A program made the translations under genes and the position numbers. This document shows, one piece after another, positions 35,030 to 39,952 of a DNA stretch of 64,000 bases (position 1 is the first letter of the stretch; the number at the start of each line of letters is the position of its first letter). The notes below the pieces were generated by a model that was not told the origin of the DNA, searched no databases, and was given only the letters and a program-made list of their open reading frames with translations. Where the stretch lies: positions 1 through 64,000 of the forward strand of contig NZ_JQGC01000014.1 of NCBI RefSeq assembly GCF_000743575.1, in the 5' to 3' direction. Source of the stretch: Devosia riboflavina (GTDB taxonomy: Bacteria; Pseudomonadota; Alphaproteobacteria; Rhizobiales; Devosiaceae).

Positions 35030-35818
35030 CTAATCCCTGGGAGCCGGAACCGGTTCCGAAACGTGATCGGCTTCGCGCCTCTGTGAACGGATCGCGTTGA
35101 TCTTGTCATTGGACACGTGGCCATGCACGCGAACGCCTTTGAGCAGCAGCCGCAAGGCTTCCCAGTGGATGCCTGCCGTAACCTTCAGCGTCATCAGCGG
35201 ATGGCTGAAAAACAGCTTTAGAAGATTTGCGTCGGTGAACTCGCGACGCGTGCCGGAAAAGGCGGCGTAGAGCAGCGGTTCGCCTGCCTCGGTCTCGTTG
35301 ATGGCGATGCGCACCCGCTCTTCCGGCGGCACGATCTTGAACTGATAGCGACAGTCGAACCCGATGAAGGGCGACACATAAAATTCCTTGTCGGCCGCCT
35401 GTTCCGCACCAACAGGCAGCACGTATGTGTGCCGCTCCCCAAAAGTGTTGTGCACTTCATAGATTGTCGCCATCGGCGAGCCGCTCTCATCGTCGCAAAA
35501 CCAGACGCTTAATGGATTGAACACATAGCCAAGAATGCGCGGATAGCAGAGGAGCCGAATTTTTGCCGGCGCTGGTAGACCCGCCCCATGAAGTTGCTCA
35601 GTGGCCCAGTCGCGAAGCCCCTGACCATGTCCATGATCCTTCGACATGAAGGCAAAAAGCGCCCTCCGATCCCAGCCGAAATATTTGAGACGATCAAGCG
35701 CTGGCAGCTCATCGAGATCGATGAGCATCGAAAATACGCGATAGCGCAGCCTATGCCGCTTTGGCCGGTGGCGCTGATGCACCACCTCCCCGACATAGAT
35801 TGCCGAACCCATGCTCAT
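35030..35818 (-). CDS. DUF1365 domain protein
   Basis: This encodes 262 residues from ATG at 35818, giving a 4-nt ATGA overlap with the FAD oxidoreductase gene. Family segments are GEVVHQRHRPKRHRLRYRVF, CYPRILGYVFNPLSVWFC and EVHNTFGERHTYVLP. DUF1365 proteins are encoded with flavin oxidoreductases and cyclopropane-synthase-like enzymes. In Rhodobacter sphaeroides the homologous pair belongs to the RpoE regulon and has been linked to fatty-acid modification (furan fatty acids). I infer a membrane-lipid role here. A TGATCT-N16-CGTATC promoter precedes the operon. Confidence 0.92.
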   Translation of the reverse strand: MSMGSAIYVGEVVHQRHRPKRHRLRYRVFSMLIDLDELPALDRLKYFGWDRRALFAFMSKDHGHGQGLRDWATEQLHGAGLPAPAKIRLLCYPRILGYVFNPLSVWFCDDESGSPMATIYEVHNTFGERHTYVLPVGAEQAADKEFYVSPFIGFDCRYQFKIVPPEERVRIAINETEAGEPLLYAAFSGTRREFTDANLLKLFFSHPLMTLKVTAGIHWEALRLLLKGVRVHGHVSNDKINAIRSQRREADHVSEPVPAPRD

Positions 35819-37158
35819 GCAACCATGCTGGCGAGCGGCGCCAGGGTGATGCGGCCCGACTGGTCGGGCACGATCCAGGGCCGCGGCAGTGCGCCCATAT
35901 CCTCGGCGGCGGCGAGCCCTGATTGCAGGCCATCCTCGTGAAAACCCCGACCGAAATGGGCGCCGGCATACCAGGTGTTCCTGTGCCTCTGGATGCGCCA
36001 GAGATTTTCCTGCGCCGCGATCGCCTTGGCGTCGAAAAGCGGGTGCGTATATTCGAAGCGGGCGACTTCCTCGCGCGGATCGTCCGGCGGGTTGAGCGTG
36101 ACGAAGAGATCGCGCCCCTCGAGATGCTGCAGCTTGTTCATCCAATAGGACACGCAGAGCGGTTTTCCTTCTGCCTCGGCCGAAGAAATATAGTTCCAGC
36201 AGCACCAGACCTTCTTGCGGCGCGGCATATAGCTGGCGTCCGCATGCAGCACCGCGAGATTTTTGGTGTATTCAAAGGCCCCGAGCAGTTTTCGTTCGTC
36301 TTCGGCCGGCTCGTCGAGCATGGCCAGCGCCTGATCCGCATGGGTCGCGATGAGAATGCGGTCGAACCGATCCTCATTGCCCTTCCGATCCCGCACGGTG
36401 ACACCCGTCGCATCGCGGAAAACCTTTGCGACCGGCGAAGACAGCCGCAGCTCGCCCGAAAACTGTTTCAGCAGCGAATTTACGTAAACCCGGCTACCAC
36501 CCCGCACCGTGCGCCAGAGCGGCCGCGCCGTCAGCAGCAGCAGGCCATGGCTTTCGAAAAAGCGCACGAAGGCCAGCAAGGGATAGGAACGAATGTCATT
36601 GGCCGTGGAAGACCAGATCGCCGCCGCCATCGGCAGCAGATGGTCGTCGACGAAGGAGCGCGAATAACGCTGGGCCCGCAGATATTCGTCGAGCGTCATG
36701 CCCTGCAGGTCGGGTCGTTCGATGACCGAAGGCGCTTCGCGATAAAAGCGGATGAGGTCGCGCAACATGGTCCAGAAGCGGGGCCGAAACGCGTTGCGGC
36801 GCTGCGCCAGCATGCCGGCCAGGCCCTCGCCGCAATATTCGAAAGTGCCGCGATCAAGGGACGCCGAGAACGACATCTCCGTCGAGACGCTATCGACTTC
36901 GAGGTGCCGCATCATGGCGGTGAAATTGGGATAGTTCCGATCATTGTAGACGATGAAGCCGGTATCGACCGGCCCGGTCCCCGGCACATCGACGGTATTG
37001 GCGTGGCCGCCGATGCGGCCCTCGGCCTCATAGAGAACCACGTCGTGCGATTTCGACAGCAGCCAGGCCGCCGAAAGGCCGGAAACACCGCTGCCGATGA
37101 CGGCAACCCGCTTACGCATGGATTGCGGCCCCGAAAAAGCACCCGCGGAATGAAACAT
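35815..37158 (-). CDS. NAD(P)/FAD-dependent oxidoreductase (flavin amine oxidase type)
   Basis: This encodes 447 residues, or about 434 if translation starts at the inner ATG at 37119 (MRKRVAV). The FAD loop is VAVIGSGVSGLSAAWLL, then VVLYEAEGRIGGHANT. Later segments DRILIATHADQALAMLDEP and WYAGAHFGRGFHEDGLQSGLAAAEDMG complete the FAD domain. It is the partner of the DUF1365 protein. Its homologue in R. sphaeroides is under RpoE control and takes part in fatty-acid modification, which I take as the likely role. It is first in its operon, divergent from rpoE. Confidence 0.92.
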   Translation of the reverse strand: MFHSAGAFSGPQSMRKRVAVIGSGVSGLSAAWLLSKSHDVVLYEAEGRIGGHANTVDVPGTGPVDTGFIVYNDRNYPNFTAMMRHLEVDSVSTEMSFSASLDRGTFEYCGEGLAGMLAQRRNAFRPRFWTMLRDLIRFYREAPSVIERPDLQGMTLDEYLRAQRYSRSFVDDHLLPMAAAIWSSTANDIRSYPLLAFVRFFESHGLLLLTARPLWRTVRGGSRVYVNSLLKQFSGELRLSSPVAKVFRDATGVTVRDRKGNEDRFDRILIATHADQALAMLDEPAEDERKLLGAFEYTKNLAVLHADASYMPRRKKVWCCWNYISSAEAEGKPLCVSYWMNKLQHLEGRDLFVTLNPPDDPREEVARFEYTHPLFDAKAIAAQENLWRIQRHRNTWYAGAHFGRGFHEDGLQSGLAAAEDMGALPRPWIVPDQSGRITLAPLASMVA

Positions 37159-37183
37159 GATCTGGTCCCGTCTGTTTGAAGAA

Positions 37184-37211
37184 GATACGGGCGCCGAAGC
37201 GATTTAGATCA
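37184..37211 (-). promoter_or_regulatory. RpoE (ECF11)-type promoter of the FAD oxidoreductase-DUF1365 operon
   Basis: On the minus strand TGATCT (37211-37206), a 16-nt spacer and CGTATC (37189-37184) match the promoter form used by RpoE-ChrR systems. It lies 25 nt upstream of the ATG at 37158. Confidence 0.8.
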
Positions 37212-37256
37212 CTTTTGCGGTCATATTTTTCTTTCTGCGAATTTTCGCCGTTGCGG

Positions 37257-37282
37257 TGATCCATGGATTTGGACCCAGCGTA
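37257..37282 (+). promoter_or_regulatory. RpoE (ECF11)-type promoter of rpoE-chrR
   Basis: TGATCC (37257-37262), a 16-nt spacer and CGTA (37279-37282) repeat the divergent promoter with identical spacing. This implies autoregulation of rpoE-chrR. It also shows that the rpoE start must lie downstream, not at the open-frame edge at 37256. Confidence 0.8.
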
Positions 37283-37393
37283 GATTGCGGCATGACACTG
37301 GCGATTTACCCACTGACCGGGAAGTGCAACCATGGCGCGGCGACGATCCGCCCGCGACGTCCTGCGCCCATCAAGGACAAAAACCAACAGGTC

Positions 37394-37969
37394 ATGACAT
37401 CAGACCAGAACGATGACGGCTCCCTACCGCACGATCTCAGCGCCAAGCTCGTGGCCATTGCCGCCTCGGCCGACATGGTCGCCTTCGAGGCCCTGTTCCG
37501 CGAATTCTCGCCGCGCATCCGCGCCTATCTCCTCAAGATGACGCGCGACACCCAGGCGGCGGAAGACTTGATGCAGGAAACCATGCTGGCCATCTGGCGC
37601 AAGGCCGGCCAATTCGATCCCTCGCGTGGCCATGCCTCGGCTTGGATCTATACGATCGCGAGAAACATCTGGATCGATGCGTGGCGGCGCCAGCGCCGGC
37701 CGGCTTTCGATCCCGACGATCCGGCCCTAGTCGCCGACCCCGAACCCGATGCCCCCAAACGCATGGAAGACAAGGAAAGCAGCGCCGCGCTCCATGCCGC
37801 GCTCAAGAACCTGCCGCAGGAGCAGGTCGAGCTGATAAAATTGTCCTTCTTCGACGAGGCCTCCCACAGCACCATTGCCACCCGGCTCGGCCTGCCCATC
37901 GGCACGGTCAAGTCGCGCATCAGGCTCGCCTTCGGCCGCCTGCGCACGGCGCTGGAGGATTTCAAATGA
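37394..37969 (+). CDS. rpoE: ECF sigma factor RpoE (ChrR-controlled, ECF11 type)
   Basis: This encodes 191 residues from ATG at 37394, chosen because the promoter at 37257-37282 excludes earlier codons. Sigma region 2 (FEALFREFSPRIRAYLLKMTRDTQAAEDLMQETML, ASAWIYTIARNIWIDAWRR) and region 4 (LPQEQVELIKLSFFDEASHSTIATRLGLPIGTVKSRIRLAFGRLR, broken here for length into its known helices) are typical. It directs the singlet-oxygen and organic-hydroperoxide response in relatives. Its stop overlaps chrR by 4 nt (ATGA at 37966), as expected for a sigma/anti-sigma pair. Confidence 0.93.
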   Translation: MTSDQNDDGSLPHDLSAKLVAIAASADMVAFEALFREFSPRIRAYLLKMTRDTQAAEDLMQETMLAIWRKAGQFDPSRGHASAWIYTIARNIWIDAWRRQRRPAFDPDDPALVADPEPDAPKRMEDKESSAALHAALKNLPQEQVELIKLSFFDEASHSTIATRLGLPIGTVKSRIRLAFGRLRTALEDFK

Positions 37970-38613
37970 CCATCCGCCATCACATCAACGACGATCTTCT
38001 CCTCGCCTATGCCTCGGGCAATCTTGCCGAAGGCTGGTCGCTGGCCGTCGCCTGCCATCTCGCCATGTGCCCCGAATGTCGCCGCAATCTCGCAACCGCC
38101 GAAGCCGCGGCCGGCGCGCTGATGGAAAACCTCGCGCCCGAACCCGGCCCCGATGATTCCTGGGAGCGCTTCAAGGCACGCCTTCTCACCGAGCCGCAGG
38201 ACGCCGCCGAGCCGGTAAAACGCCCGGCCAAGGCTACTCTGCCCGAACCCCTCCGCTCCTATCTCGGCGGCGATCTCGACACGCTCAAATGGCGCAGCAT
38301 GGGCACGGCCAAGCAGATCGTCATCCGCACCAATGACAATGAAACCCAGGTGCGGCTCCTCCGCATCGGTGCCGGCACGCCCGTGCCCGAGCACACCCAT
38401 GGCGGCCGCGAACTGACGCTGGTGCTTACCGGACGGTTCCACGACGAAGTCGATAGTTTTGGCCCCGGCGATCTGGAAGACGCCGATGGTTCGCTGACGC
38501 ATCAGCCGGTGGCGGATCCGGAAGAAGATTGCATCTGTCTTGCCATCACCGACGCCCCGTTAAAATTCCGCAGCCGTCTCATGCGGATCATCCAGCCCTT
38601 CCTCGGCATCTAG
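37966..38613 (+). CDS. chrR: Anti-sigma factor ChrR (zinc ASD plus cupin)
   Basis: This encodes 215 residues. The N-terminal anti-sigma domain has all four zinc ligands known from R. sphaeroides ChrR at the same numbers: His6, His31, Cys35 and Cys38 (CHLAMCPEC). The C-terminal cupin has the second zinc set in PEHTHGGREL (His143, His145, Glu149) and LTHQP (His179). It holds RpoE inactive until singlet oxygen triggers its turnover. The gene is coupled to rpoE and followed 9 nt later by a DUF2177 gene. Confidence 0.95.
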   Translation: MTIRHHINDDLLLAYASGNLAEGWSLAVACHLAMCPECRRNLATAEAAAGALMENLAPEPGPDDSWERFKARLLTEPQDAAEPVKRPAKATLPEPLRSYLGGDLDTLKWRSMGTAKQIVIRTNDNETQVRLLRIGAGTPVPEHTHGGRELTLVLTGRFHDEVDSFGPGDLEDADGSLTHQPVADPEEDCICLAITDAPLKFRSRLMRIIQPFLGI

Positions 38614-38622
38614 GAGAAGACC

Positions 38623-39039
38623 ATGGCCGGCATTTCGCTCGTGACGCTCCTCGCCGCCTATGCCGGCGCTGCCGCTGTTTTCTTCGCCCTCGATTTCCTC
38701 TGGCTCTCGGTCATCGCCATCGGCTTTTACCGCGCCGAAATCGGTACTCTGCTGCTCGAGCGCCCCAATTTCATGGCGGCCGGCGCCTTTTATCTCTTCT
38801 ATGTCGCCGGCATTGTCGGCTTTGCCGTGGTCCCGGCCGTTTCGGCCCAATCCTGGCTCTGGGCCGTCATTGCCGGCGTGGCGCTCGGCCTCATCGCCTA
38901 TGGCACCTATGACATGACCAATCTCGCAACGTTGAAAGACTGGTCCTGGAAGGTGAGCGCCATCGACCTCTGTTGGGGCGGCTTCCTCAGCGGCCTTGCG
39001 GCTCTTGCCGGCTATTGGGCCGCCCGCCTCACCGCTTGA
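38623..39039 (+). CDS. DUF2177 family membrane protein
   Basis: This encodes 138 residues with four membrane helices. Family pattern: FFALDFLWLSVIAIGFYRAEIG, GIVGFAVVPAV, GLIAYGTYDMTNLATLKDW and DLCWGGFLSGL. The function is unknown; DUF2177 genes commonly accompany lipid-modification genes of ECF11 regulons. It is the third gene of the rpoE-chrR operon (GGAGAAG ribosome site). Its 3' end overlaps the end of the converging SDR gene by 11 nt. Confidence 0.9.
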   Translation: MAGISLVTLLAAYAGAAAVFFALDFLWLSVIAIGFYRAEIGTLLLERPNFMAAGAFYLFYVAGIVGFAVVPAVSAQSWLWAVIAGVALGLIAYGTYDMTNLATLKDWSWKVSAIDLCWGGFLSGLAALAGYWAARLTA

Positions 39040-39760
39040 GTTTGGCCGCGATCGGCAGCGACAGCGCATAGGGCAGGATACCGAGCAGCCGCAGCGGCCA
39101 GATCAGCCGGCGCGGAAAGGCAATTTCAAAACCTTTCCCGTCGAGCCCGCGCAGGATCCTTTTCGCCGCATCCTCGGGCTCCAGCAAAGCCGGCATATCG
39201 AAATCGTTCTGGTCGGTCAGCCGCGTGCGTACAAAGCCCGGCGTCACCAGCCGCACATCGACCTCGGGCCAAAATTCCACCCGCAGGCTCTGCGCCAGAT
39301 TGACGATACCGGCTTTGGTTGCCGAATAGACCTGCCCTTGCGGCAGGCCAAAGAGCGCTGCCGCCGAACCGAACAGCACCAATTGCCCGCCTTTTCGCAG
39401 ATGTTTTGCTGCACAACGGGCGACGTTGAATGTCCCCGTCAAATTGGCGGCAAAGATGGCCTCGGCCTTTTGCTGGTCGGCCTTCAGCACCGGACCCGGA
39501 TCATAGATCGCCGCCGTAACGATAACCCGATCGAACGGTCCATGCGCCGCTGCCGCCCTTTCGAGCGAAACGGGATCGACCACGTCGGCCACTGCCCCGG
39601 CATGCCCGCTGCCAAGTTCTGATACCACCGCATCGAGTGCATCCTGCTTGCGGCCGGAAACGACGATTCGCGCCCCCTTTTGCGCATAGGCTTTCGCCAA
39701 CGCCGTCCCGATGCCGCTGCTACCGCCGATGATCCAGATTTTCTCGCCCGTCGCCGCCAT
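39029..39760 (-). CDS. SDR family NAD(P)-dependent oxidoreductase
   Basis: This encodes 243 residues from ATG at 39760 (AAGGAGA upstream). It is a classical short-chain dehydrogenase. The cofactor loop is IIGGSSGIGTALAKAYA, and GSAAALFGLPQGQVYSATKAG carries the Ser...Tyr-x3-Lys active site. The substrate is unknown. A possible RpoE-type promoter stands directly upstream, and an SDR gene is also part of the RpoE regulon in R. sphaeroides, so it probably belongs to the same stress response. Confidence 0.92.
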   Translation of the reverse strand: MAATGEKIWIIGGSSGIGTALAKAYAQKGARIVVSGRKQDALDAVVSELGSGHAGAVADVVDPVSLERAAAAHGPFDRVIVTAAIYDPGPVLKADQQKAEAIFAANLTGTFNVARCAAKHLRKGGQLVLFGSAAALFGLPQGQVYSATKAGIVNLAQSLRVEFWPEVDVRLVTPGFVRTRLTDQNDFDMPALLEPEDAAKRILRGLDGKGFEIAFPRRLIWPLRLLGILPYALSLPIAAKLKR

Positions 39761-39782
39761 GGAATTCTCCTTGTGTGAAGGA

Positions 39783-39810
39783 GATACGAGGCAAAGACGC
39801 ATTTGGATGC
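39783..39810 (-). promoter_or_regulatory. Candidate RpoE-type promoter of the SDR gene
   Basis: On the minus strand GCATCC (39810-39805), a 16-nt spacer and CGTATC (39788-39783) match the two promoters at 37.2 kb, with two changes in the -35 element. The -10 ends 23 nt from the ATG. Confidence 0.55.
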
Positions 39811-39867: not shown

Positions 39868-39952
39868 TGGTGCCCAGAAAAGGACTCGAACCTTCACGCC
39901 TTGCGGCACACGGACCTGAACCGTGCGCGTCTACCAATTCCGCCATCTGGGC
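39868..39952 (-). tRNA. tRNA-Leu (CAG)
   Basis: This is an 85-nt class II tRNA on the minus strand. It starts GCCCAGATGGCGGAATTGGT, has the anticodon stem CACGG/CCGTG with loop TTCAGGT (anticodon CAG), a long variable arm (GTGCCGCAAGGCGT), T-arm GGTTCGAGTCC, and an encoded CCA. Confidence 0.97.

Follow-up and report, generated by a model that had tools for sequence, protein, structure and literature searches.

Introduction

Among the closest described systems is the sigma-E/ChrR regulon of Rhodobacter sphaeroides (RSP1091-1087, with ufaM at RSP2144), in which an extracytoplasmic function (ECF) sigma factor of type ECF11 is paired with a cupin anti-sigma factor, the ufaD-ufaO genes are divergent, ufaM is unlinked, and a photolyase and a short-chain dehydrogenase/reductase (SDR) belong to the regulon (PMC6852236, PMC7380195, PMC7074977; here and below, publications are cited for the parts of their text that were accessible). 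The stretch analyzed here, 64,000 nucleotides of the Devosia riboflavina genome (the window; positions 1-64000 of contig C14 in a genome of 5.05 Mb), holds a locus of the same kind, where an ECF11-type rpoE-chrR operon diverges from a UfaD/UfaO pair, that is, a flavin adenine dinucleotide (FAD) oxidoreductase and a DUF1365 protein. With a probability of roughly 80%, we propose that a sigma-E/ChrR switch controls furan-fatty-acid synthesis in this bacterium and that the pathway is split between a native ufaM and a foreign module made of rpoE-chrR-DUF2177 and ufaD-ufaO.

In R. sphaeroides the turnover of ChrR is triggered by singlet oxygen (PMC6852236), and the chemistry of UfaM, UfaD and UfaO was demonstrated there and in Rhodopseudomonas palustris, where a contiguous ufaD-ufaO-ufaM set (RPA2571-2569) is sufficient for furan lipid synthesis; according to that work, published in 2020, it is not known which reductant UfaO uses for ring closure (PMC7380195). 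A comparable gene set occurs in Chlamydomonas, in which CFA1, CFA2, a DUF1365 gene and a DUF2177 gene all need SAK1 for their induction by singlet oxygen (PMC4067076). For Devosia combined with singlet oxygen, ChrR or furan fatty acid, the 15 literature matches listed of 75 included no paper on the genus, and neither did the five obtained by pairing it with photolyase, 11-methyl, ufaM or furan.

Results

The module spans the following features, which run from ufaO and ufaD on the minus strand, through two divergent sigma-E boxes, to rpoE, chrR and the DUF2177 gene on the plus strand, with the SDR gene on the opposite strand:

35030-35818, minus strand: ufaO-like gene (DUF1365; PF07103, 263.5 bits), candidate O2-dependent furan-forming protein
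35815-37158, minus strand: ufaD-like gene (FAD-dependent oxidoreductase; PF01593/PF13450), overlapping ufaO, candidate methyl-fatty-acyl desaturase
37186-37211, minus strand: sigma-E box for ufaD-ufaO, exact match to TGATCY-N16-CGTA
37257-37282, plus strand: sigma-E box for rpoE-chrR-DUF2177, exact match
37394-37969, plus strand: rpoE, ECF sigma factor (Pfam; match to the solved R. sphaeroides RpoE)
37966-38613, plus strand: chrR, zinc-type anti-sigma factor with a cupin domain (Pfam, TIGR02451, residue alignment)
38623-39039, plus strand: DUF2177 gene, third in the rpoE operon (PF09945, 142.4 bits), all-helical, probably membrane, proposed pathway partner
39029-39802, minus strand: SDR gene (PF00106; probable start 39760)
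39785-39810, minus strand: variant box for the SDR gene, GCATCC-N16-CGTA, conserved in relatives
39868-39952, minus strand: tRNA-Leu(CAG) gene adjoining the module edge, possible insertion landmark

The types of the adjacent UfaD and UfaO genes were assigned from Pfam families and gene order, and Pfam confirmed both members of the FAD oxidoreductase-DUF1365 pair named in an original prediction made from the letters of the window alone. R. sphaeroides UfaO also contains DUF1365, and the ufaD-ufaO order is that of R. sphaeroides RSP1091-1090 and of R. palustris (PMC7380195). The stop codon of rpoE overlaps the start of chrR (ATGA). RpoE carries ECF sigma regions 2 and 4 (PF04542, PF04545, PF08281), and its best match among solved structures is R. 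sphaeroides RpoE (2q1z, E 2.5e-36). ChrR scores 215.9 bits against TIGR02451 (cut-off 124.5). The residues already picked out in this protein, His6, His31, Cys35 and Cys38 together with His143, His145, Glu149 and His179, which we take to be the metal ligands, are all present, and each aligns with a residue of the same type in the R. sphaeroides protein, whose cupin residues are numbered two positions lower. The alignment covers residues 1-204 (PDB 2z2s, E 2e-51), and both the HxxxCxxC-type zinc site and the cupin His/His/Glu/His set that mark an ECF11 anti-sigma factor are found.

The two divergent promoters bear the exact TGATCY-N16-CGTA sequence, as had been claimed, with no third exact site in the 64 kb, where shuffled motifs gave a mean of 0.10 exact boxes and never two (0/100 shuffles). 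The exact box ahead of rpoE corresponds to the autoregulated TGATCC-N16-CGTA promoter of ECF11 sigma-E/ChrR systems, and the same consensus was reported for PSPTO_1043 of Pseudomonas syringae (PMC5507510). Relatives keep the rpoE box, and most of them match the ufaD-ufaO box with at most one mismatch over nine bases.

In the whole genome, nine exact boxes were found (three for the reversed-pattern control). The divergent pair makes up two of them, and a third is the box ahead of ufaM. Five fall inside predicted open reading frames (ORFs) and are taken as chance. The ninth, TGATCT-N16-CGTA at L009:1501-1526 (G000:C22:109611-109636; loci L022/L009), is located between the genes for an inositol-phosphatase and a padR-type regulator and may mark a further regulon member.

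The cyclopropane-synthase-like (CMAS) methyltransferase that the original prediction had found missing from the window is indeed encoded elsewhere, since all four PF02353 matches of the genome sit on other contigs. One of them, behind recJ at C6:334138-335370, is identified as the UfaM orthologue because its counterpart closes a ufaD-ufaO-ufaM series in 18 fetched Devosia loci. Its identity is about 90% to the operon UfaM of those relatives and 46% to the gene in the ufaM position of Rhizobium daejeonense; the strongest other CMAS match (contig C3) is 33% identical to it. Its exact box begins 18 bases past the recJ stop codon, about 365 bases ahead of the gene. The proposed regulon is supported along with its family calls and promoters, the genome-wide search came out in its favor, and the presence of a UfaM orthologue preceded by an exact box leads to the prediction of a complete route to furan fatty acids.

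The orthologue occurs in 57/61 Devosia genomes searched, many of them without ChrR, and in 55/61 genomes of the family. Its upstream landmark is recJ in 52 of the 53 fetched Devosia loci (the exception, L054, ends at a contig end) and in every one of the 20 loci taken from the family's other genera. The native arrangement is apparently recJ-ufaD-ufaO-ufaM with rpoE-chrR beside it. This layout, mostly with adjoining SDR, chrR and rpoE genes (type A), is seen in 18 Devosia loci and in 5/20 loci of other genera, and a box with at most one mismatch precedes ufaD in 16 of the 17 type A loci with recJ, the exception (G048) having no ChrR match. The window belongs to type B, in which rpoE-chrR-DUF2177 diverges from ufaD-ufaO and ufaM is left behind recJ. 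Other Devosia genomes have ufaM alone (type C), or ufaD-ufaO with DUF2177 and no ChrR match (G008, G033, G058). Types were assigned from ChrR and UfaD matches and the fetched loci, the B label standing for a ChrR identity of 60% or more; it lumps at least two modules, as the UfaD of G037 falls outside the clade of the window UfaD. One genome, G035, has two copies of the rpoE-chrR-DUF2177/ufaD-ufaO module (L090, L091). In other families, distant UfaM-like matches (25-28% identity) lie near ufa loci (L135, L138, L139, L140, L147, L150) and are possibly second methyltransferases of the fufM type.

A scar of the native operon is visible between recJ and ufaM. When native UfaO proteins were searched against the 35 recJ-ufaM gaps of genomes without ufaD there, a decayed UfaO C-terminus was recovered in 26 at E<=1e-3, always on the coding strand, and reversed queries and reversed gaps gave none. 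The gap of the window genome holds a remnant 68% identical over 47 residues (E 5e-16), and its DNA aligns at 77% to the ufaO-ufaM junction, the 3' end of ufaO, of a type A relative. Weak traces of a UfaD N-terminus past the box (E 0.002, and 0.005 in G023) were obtained without a control of their own and are a mere hint. From the decayed 3' end of ufaO we conclude that this genome has lost ufaD along with the greater part of ufaO, and that the box occupies the position of the old operon promoter.

Two further promoters depart from the consensus. The weaker third box that had been proposed ahead of the SDR gene, GCATCC-N16-CGTA, has two mismatches and is nevertheless conserved: (G/A)CATCC-N16-CGTA lies about 50-60 bp upstream of the SDR gene in 18/20 loci that have one, corresponding to 16/17 distinct genomes (a tally by eye, three of the 20 loci being duplicates; D. 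sediminis lacks it). The regulon had also been expected to reach photolyase genes, and the single photolyase found in the genome carries a one-mismatch box, TGAACC-N16-CGTA, 52 bp before its start. Among relatives with ChrR, the window genome included, 30/35 have a photolyase box with at most one mismatch (29 at the usual -48 to -67), compared with 2/6 without a ChrR match; shuffled motifs gave a mean of 0.48 and one reached 26/35. Photolyase also accompanies UfaD (40/42 UfaD-positive versus 2/13 UfaD-negative among 55 good genomes), with 4.6 of 6 independent pairs agreeing on the tree (p 0.06). Ten Devosia genomes (G003, G006, G010, G012, G015, G036, G044, G046, G047 and G055) lack UfaD, DUF2177 and photolyase and have kept ufaM, a pattern that would suit the joint loss of a whole light-stress kit.

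A different ECF factor might recognize these variant boxes, and at the photolyase it could be EcfG, which governs the general stress response (consensus GGAAC/CGTT); we take this alternative seriously even though we lean away from it. Both boxes are conserved as variants rather than as decayed forms of TGATCC, and TGAACC persists in the two genomes without a ChrR match mentioned above. On the other side, the photolyase box reads TGATCC in three relatives, each of the genome's seven further exact GCATCC sites lies inside a predicted ORF, and phrA of R. sphaeroides is controlled by RpoE (PMC7074977). No second ECF factor that would recognize GCATCC was found; the accessible text of PMC3420878 contains no consensus that matches this motif.

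The third gene of the rpoE operon follows UfaD closely. DUF2177 (PF09945) was found in 60/64 UfaD-positive and 0/34 UfaD-negative genomes, a count that covers all but three of the 61 Devosia genomes. In Devosia it is present in 41/41 UfaD-positive and 0/12 UfaD-negative genomes of a first set and in 3/3 and 0/2 of an added set (the copy of G054 being partial, with a stop); outside the genus, 14/18 UfaD-positive genomes of the order and 2/2 of the family have it, as do 0/20 UfaD-negative ones (17 of the order and 3 of the family, those listed among 108 genomes without a UfaD match). Its presence follows UfaD in 6/6 independent pairs on the tree (p 0.031). In the 18 type A genomes, where DUF2177 is unlinked, it has its own box with at most one mismatch in 16, mostly about 40 bp ahead of the start, 13 of them exact on nine positions (shuffled motifs: mean 0.29, largest 6); of the two without a box, G048 gave no ChrR match and G028 carries its ChrR elsewhere in the genome. 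The predicted model is helical (mean predicted local distance difference test score, pLDDT, 74.6, built on only 7 sequences) and has no PDB match at E<=0.001; the UfaO model was poor (pLDDT 49). From these patterns we propose that DUF2177 may be an unrecognized partner of the furan-fatty-acid pathway. Its absence from four UfaD-positive genomes of the order (G096, G072, G103, G076) counts against such a role, and the passages available from two papers that name DUF2177 offered no link to furan lipids. The known gene RSP1088, dispensable for furan lipids in R. sphaeroides (PMC7380195), is unlikely to be DUF2177, because it encodes 186 amino acids and its P. syringae orthologue is a lipoprotein.

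Cotranscription with chrR in the window arrangement would equally suit a regulatory or general stress protein that is no partner of UfaD and UfaO. We consider this unlikely, given that DUF2177 is kept next to ufaD-ufaO in the three genomes without a ChrR match, is absent from G012, which has ChrR and no UfaD, and tracks UfaD in every independent pair.

Whether UfaM answers to the switch was judged from its box. A box with at most one mismatch is present in the ufaM gap of 12/16 type B genomes, 1/4 of the class with ChrR at 50% identity, 1/14 genomes without a ChrR match and 0/1 with ChrR and no UfaD (G012); the difference between type B and no ChrR is significant by Fisher's test (p 2e-4). Shuffled motifs averaged 0.33/16 at these gaps, with one reaching 9/16; here and for the photolyase the means are the better guide than the maxima, since shuffles can fall near the real motif. 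Several observations weigh against control of UfaM by RpoE or against its assignment. Four of the 16 type B genomes (G001, G040, G018, G060) have no such box, G023 has an exact one and no ChrR, and the tree-paired test of ChrR against the ufaM box was not significant (2.2 of 4 pairs agree and 1.7 do not differ). In addition, the box shares bases with a perfect inverted repeat that follows recJ, its leader is about 340 bp long, and among NCBIfam models none was found that separates UfaM from Cfa here. The repeat itself, CCCCGTAGTC / GACTACGGGG at L014:7796-7825, overlaps the -10 element and may be a recJ terminator or due to chance.

In keeping with these observations, UfaM could stand outside the regulon in this lineage as a constitutive enzyme, with the box behind recJ a decaying relic. 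Its near-universal presence in the genus, including many genomes without ChrR, the single mismatch common in type B boxes and the non-significant paired test would all fit, as would the report that 11-methyl-18:1, the type of product UfaM makes, is usually a major fatty acid of Devosiaceae (PMC7179689). The contrast between type B genomes and those without ChrR, far above the shuffled mean, leads us to regard constitutive expression as unlikely.

The module of the window is a different version from the native one and was probably acquired horizontally, which is the simplest reading. In the UfaD tree, starred branches separate the native type from that of the window, which sits among other families of the order, and a single clade of both was rejected (approximately unbiased test, p-AU 0.007). 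The RecJ+UfaM tree places the window genome apart from the main type B group, in a clade of nine (Shimodaira-Hasegawa-like approximate likelihood ratio test, SH-aLRT, 99) together with genomes of type A, of the 50% class and with ufaM alone. The closest UfaD relatives found among named genomes belong to two Devosia metagenome-assembled genomes (91-94% identity). They share with the window five flanking proteins that were not found at the other 25 loci compared, and the tRNA-Leu gene at the module edge is confined to these three among the compared loci. The same gene order occurs on plasmids of R. daejeonense and Aminobacter aminovorans. An ancient duplication, after which a Devosiaceae ancestor holding both versions left lineages that lost one or the other without any horizontal transfer, would challenge this origin and would agree with the shared box and with the single well-supported clade of the window type, but we think it improbable, because none of the 61 genomes searched carries both types, the window type nests among other families, the RecJ+UfaM tree requires at least 4-5 changes of the type label (which pools different modules by ChrR identity), the flanks of the window lineage were not found at other type B loci, and plasmids carry similar modules.

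Discussion

Our preferred reading, a sigma-E/ChrR switch over a divided furan-fatty-acid pathway, can be laid out as follows. By analogy with R. sphaeroides, ChrR would hold RpoE until singlet oxygen or an organic peroxide triggers its loss. Freed RpoE would then transcribe rpoE, chrR, DUF2177, ufaD-ufaO and the unlinked ufaM, and probably also the photolyase and SDR genes. UfaM would methylate cis-vaccenoyl chains, UfaD would add a second double bond, and UfaO would close the furan ring with O2; DUF2177 may work with UfaD and UfaO in the membrane. In the native recJ-ufaD-ufaO-ufaM operon, ufaD and ufaO would have been deleted while ufaM and the box at the old promoter position were kept, and the foreign module, whose sigma factor reads the same box, would supply the rest. 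Singlet-oxygen induction and furan lipid production in this lineage are both expected from their counterparts in Rhodobacter and Rhodopseudomonas.

Unlike in R. sphaeroides, the rpoE operon of the window includes DUF2177, no transporter or lipoprotein gene was seen beside ufaD-ufaO, and ufaM lies behind recJ as the apparent remnant of a deleted native operon. The contiguous genes of R. palustris resemble the native Devosiaceae arrangement, whereas the window genome has ufaM apart from ufaD-ufaO and no fufM was identified in it. On plasmid unnamed2 of R. daejeonense and pAA01 of A. aminovorans, DUF2177-chrR-rpoE and ufaD-ufaO are divergent and the box facing rpoE is exact, as in the window. The box toward ufaD is CGATCC in both plasmid modules, however, and the R. 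daejeonense module has a ufaM of its own. Chlamydomonas shares much of the gene set but is a eukaryote with another regulator, and its DUF2177 gene is not linked to a lipid product in the accessible text of that report (PMC4067076).

The regulator locus is of a known kind; what is unusual is the division and rebuilding of its pathway, together with a component, DUF2177, that has likely been overlooked. We put forward tentatively, at somewhat less than even odds, the combined proposal that bacteria (and perhaps algae) use DUF2177 as a fourth, dedicated protein in making furan fatty acids, such as a membrane partner or electron route of UfaO, and that the Devosia pathway consists of an orphan native methyltransferase with its old promoter and a plugged-in foreign cassette that reads the same code. 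Small and helical, DUF2177 accompanies UfaD/UfaO where the pair is lost, relocated or transferred, and in all or nearly all cases it is under one and the same stress sigma factor, which makes it a concrete target for knockout.

The emptied operon shows legibly how a pathway can be put together again from a native enzyme and a cassette of probably foreign origin because a single promoter code is common to both. It also bears on the lipids of the family. In addition to the general report for Devosiaceae, 11-methyl-18:1 has been described in three Devosia strains other than that of the window (PMC7179689, PMC12301985, PMC5644702), exceeding 20% in two of them (PMC12301985). The retention of UfaM by Devosia genomes that are without UfaD would account for the broad distribution of this fatty acid across the family, with furan synthesis expected to be patchy.

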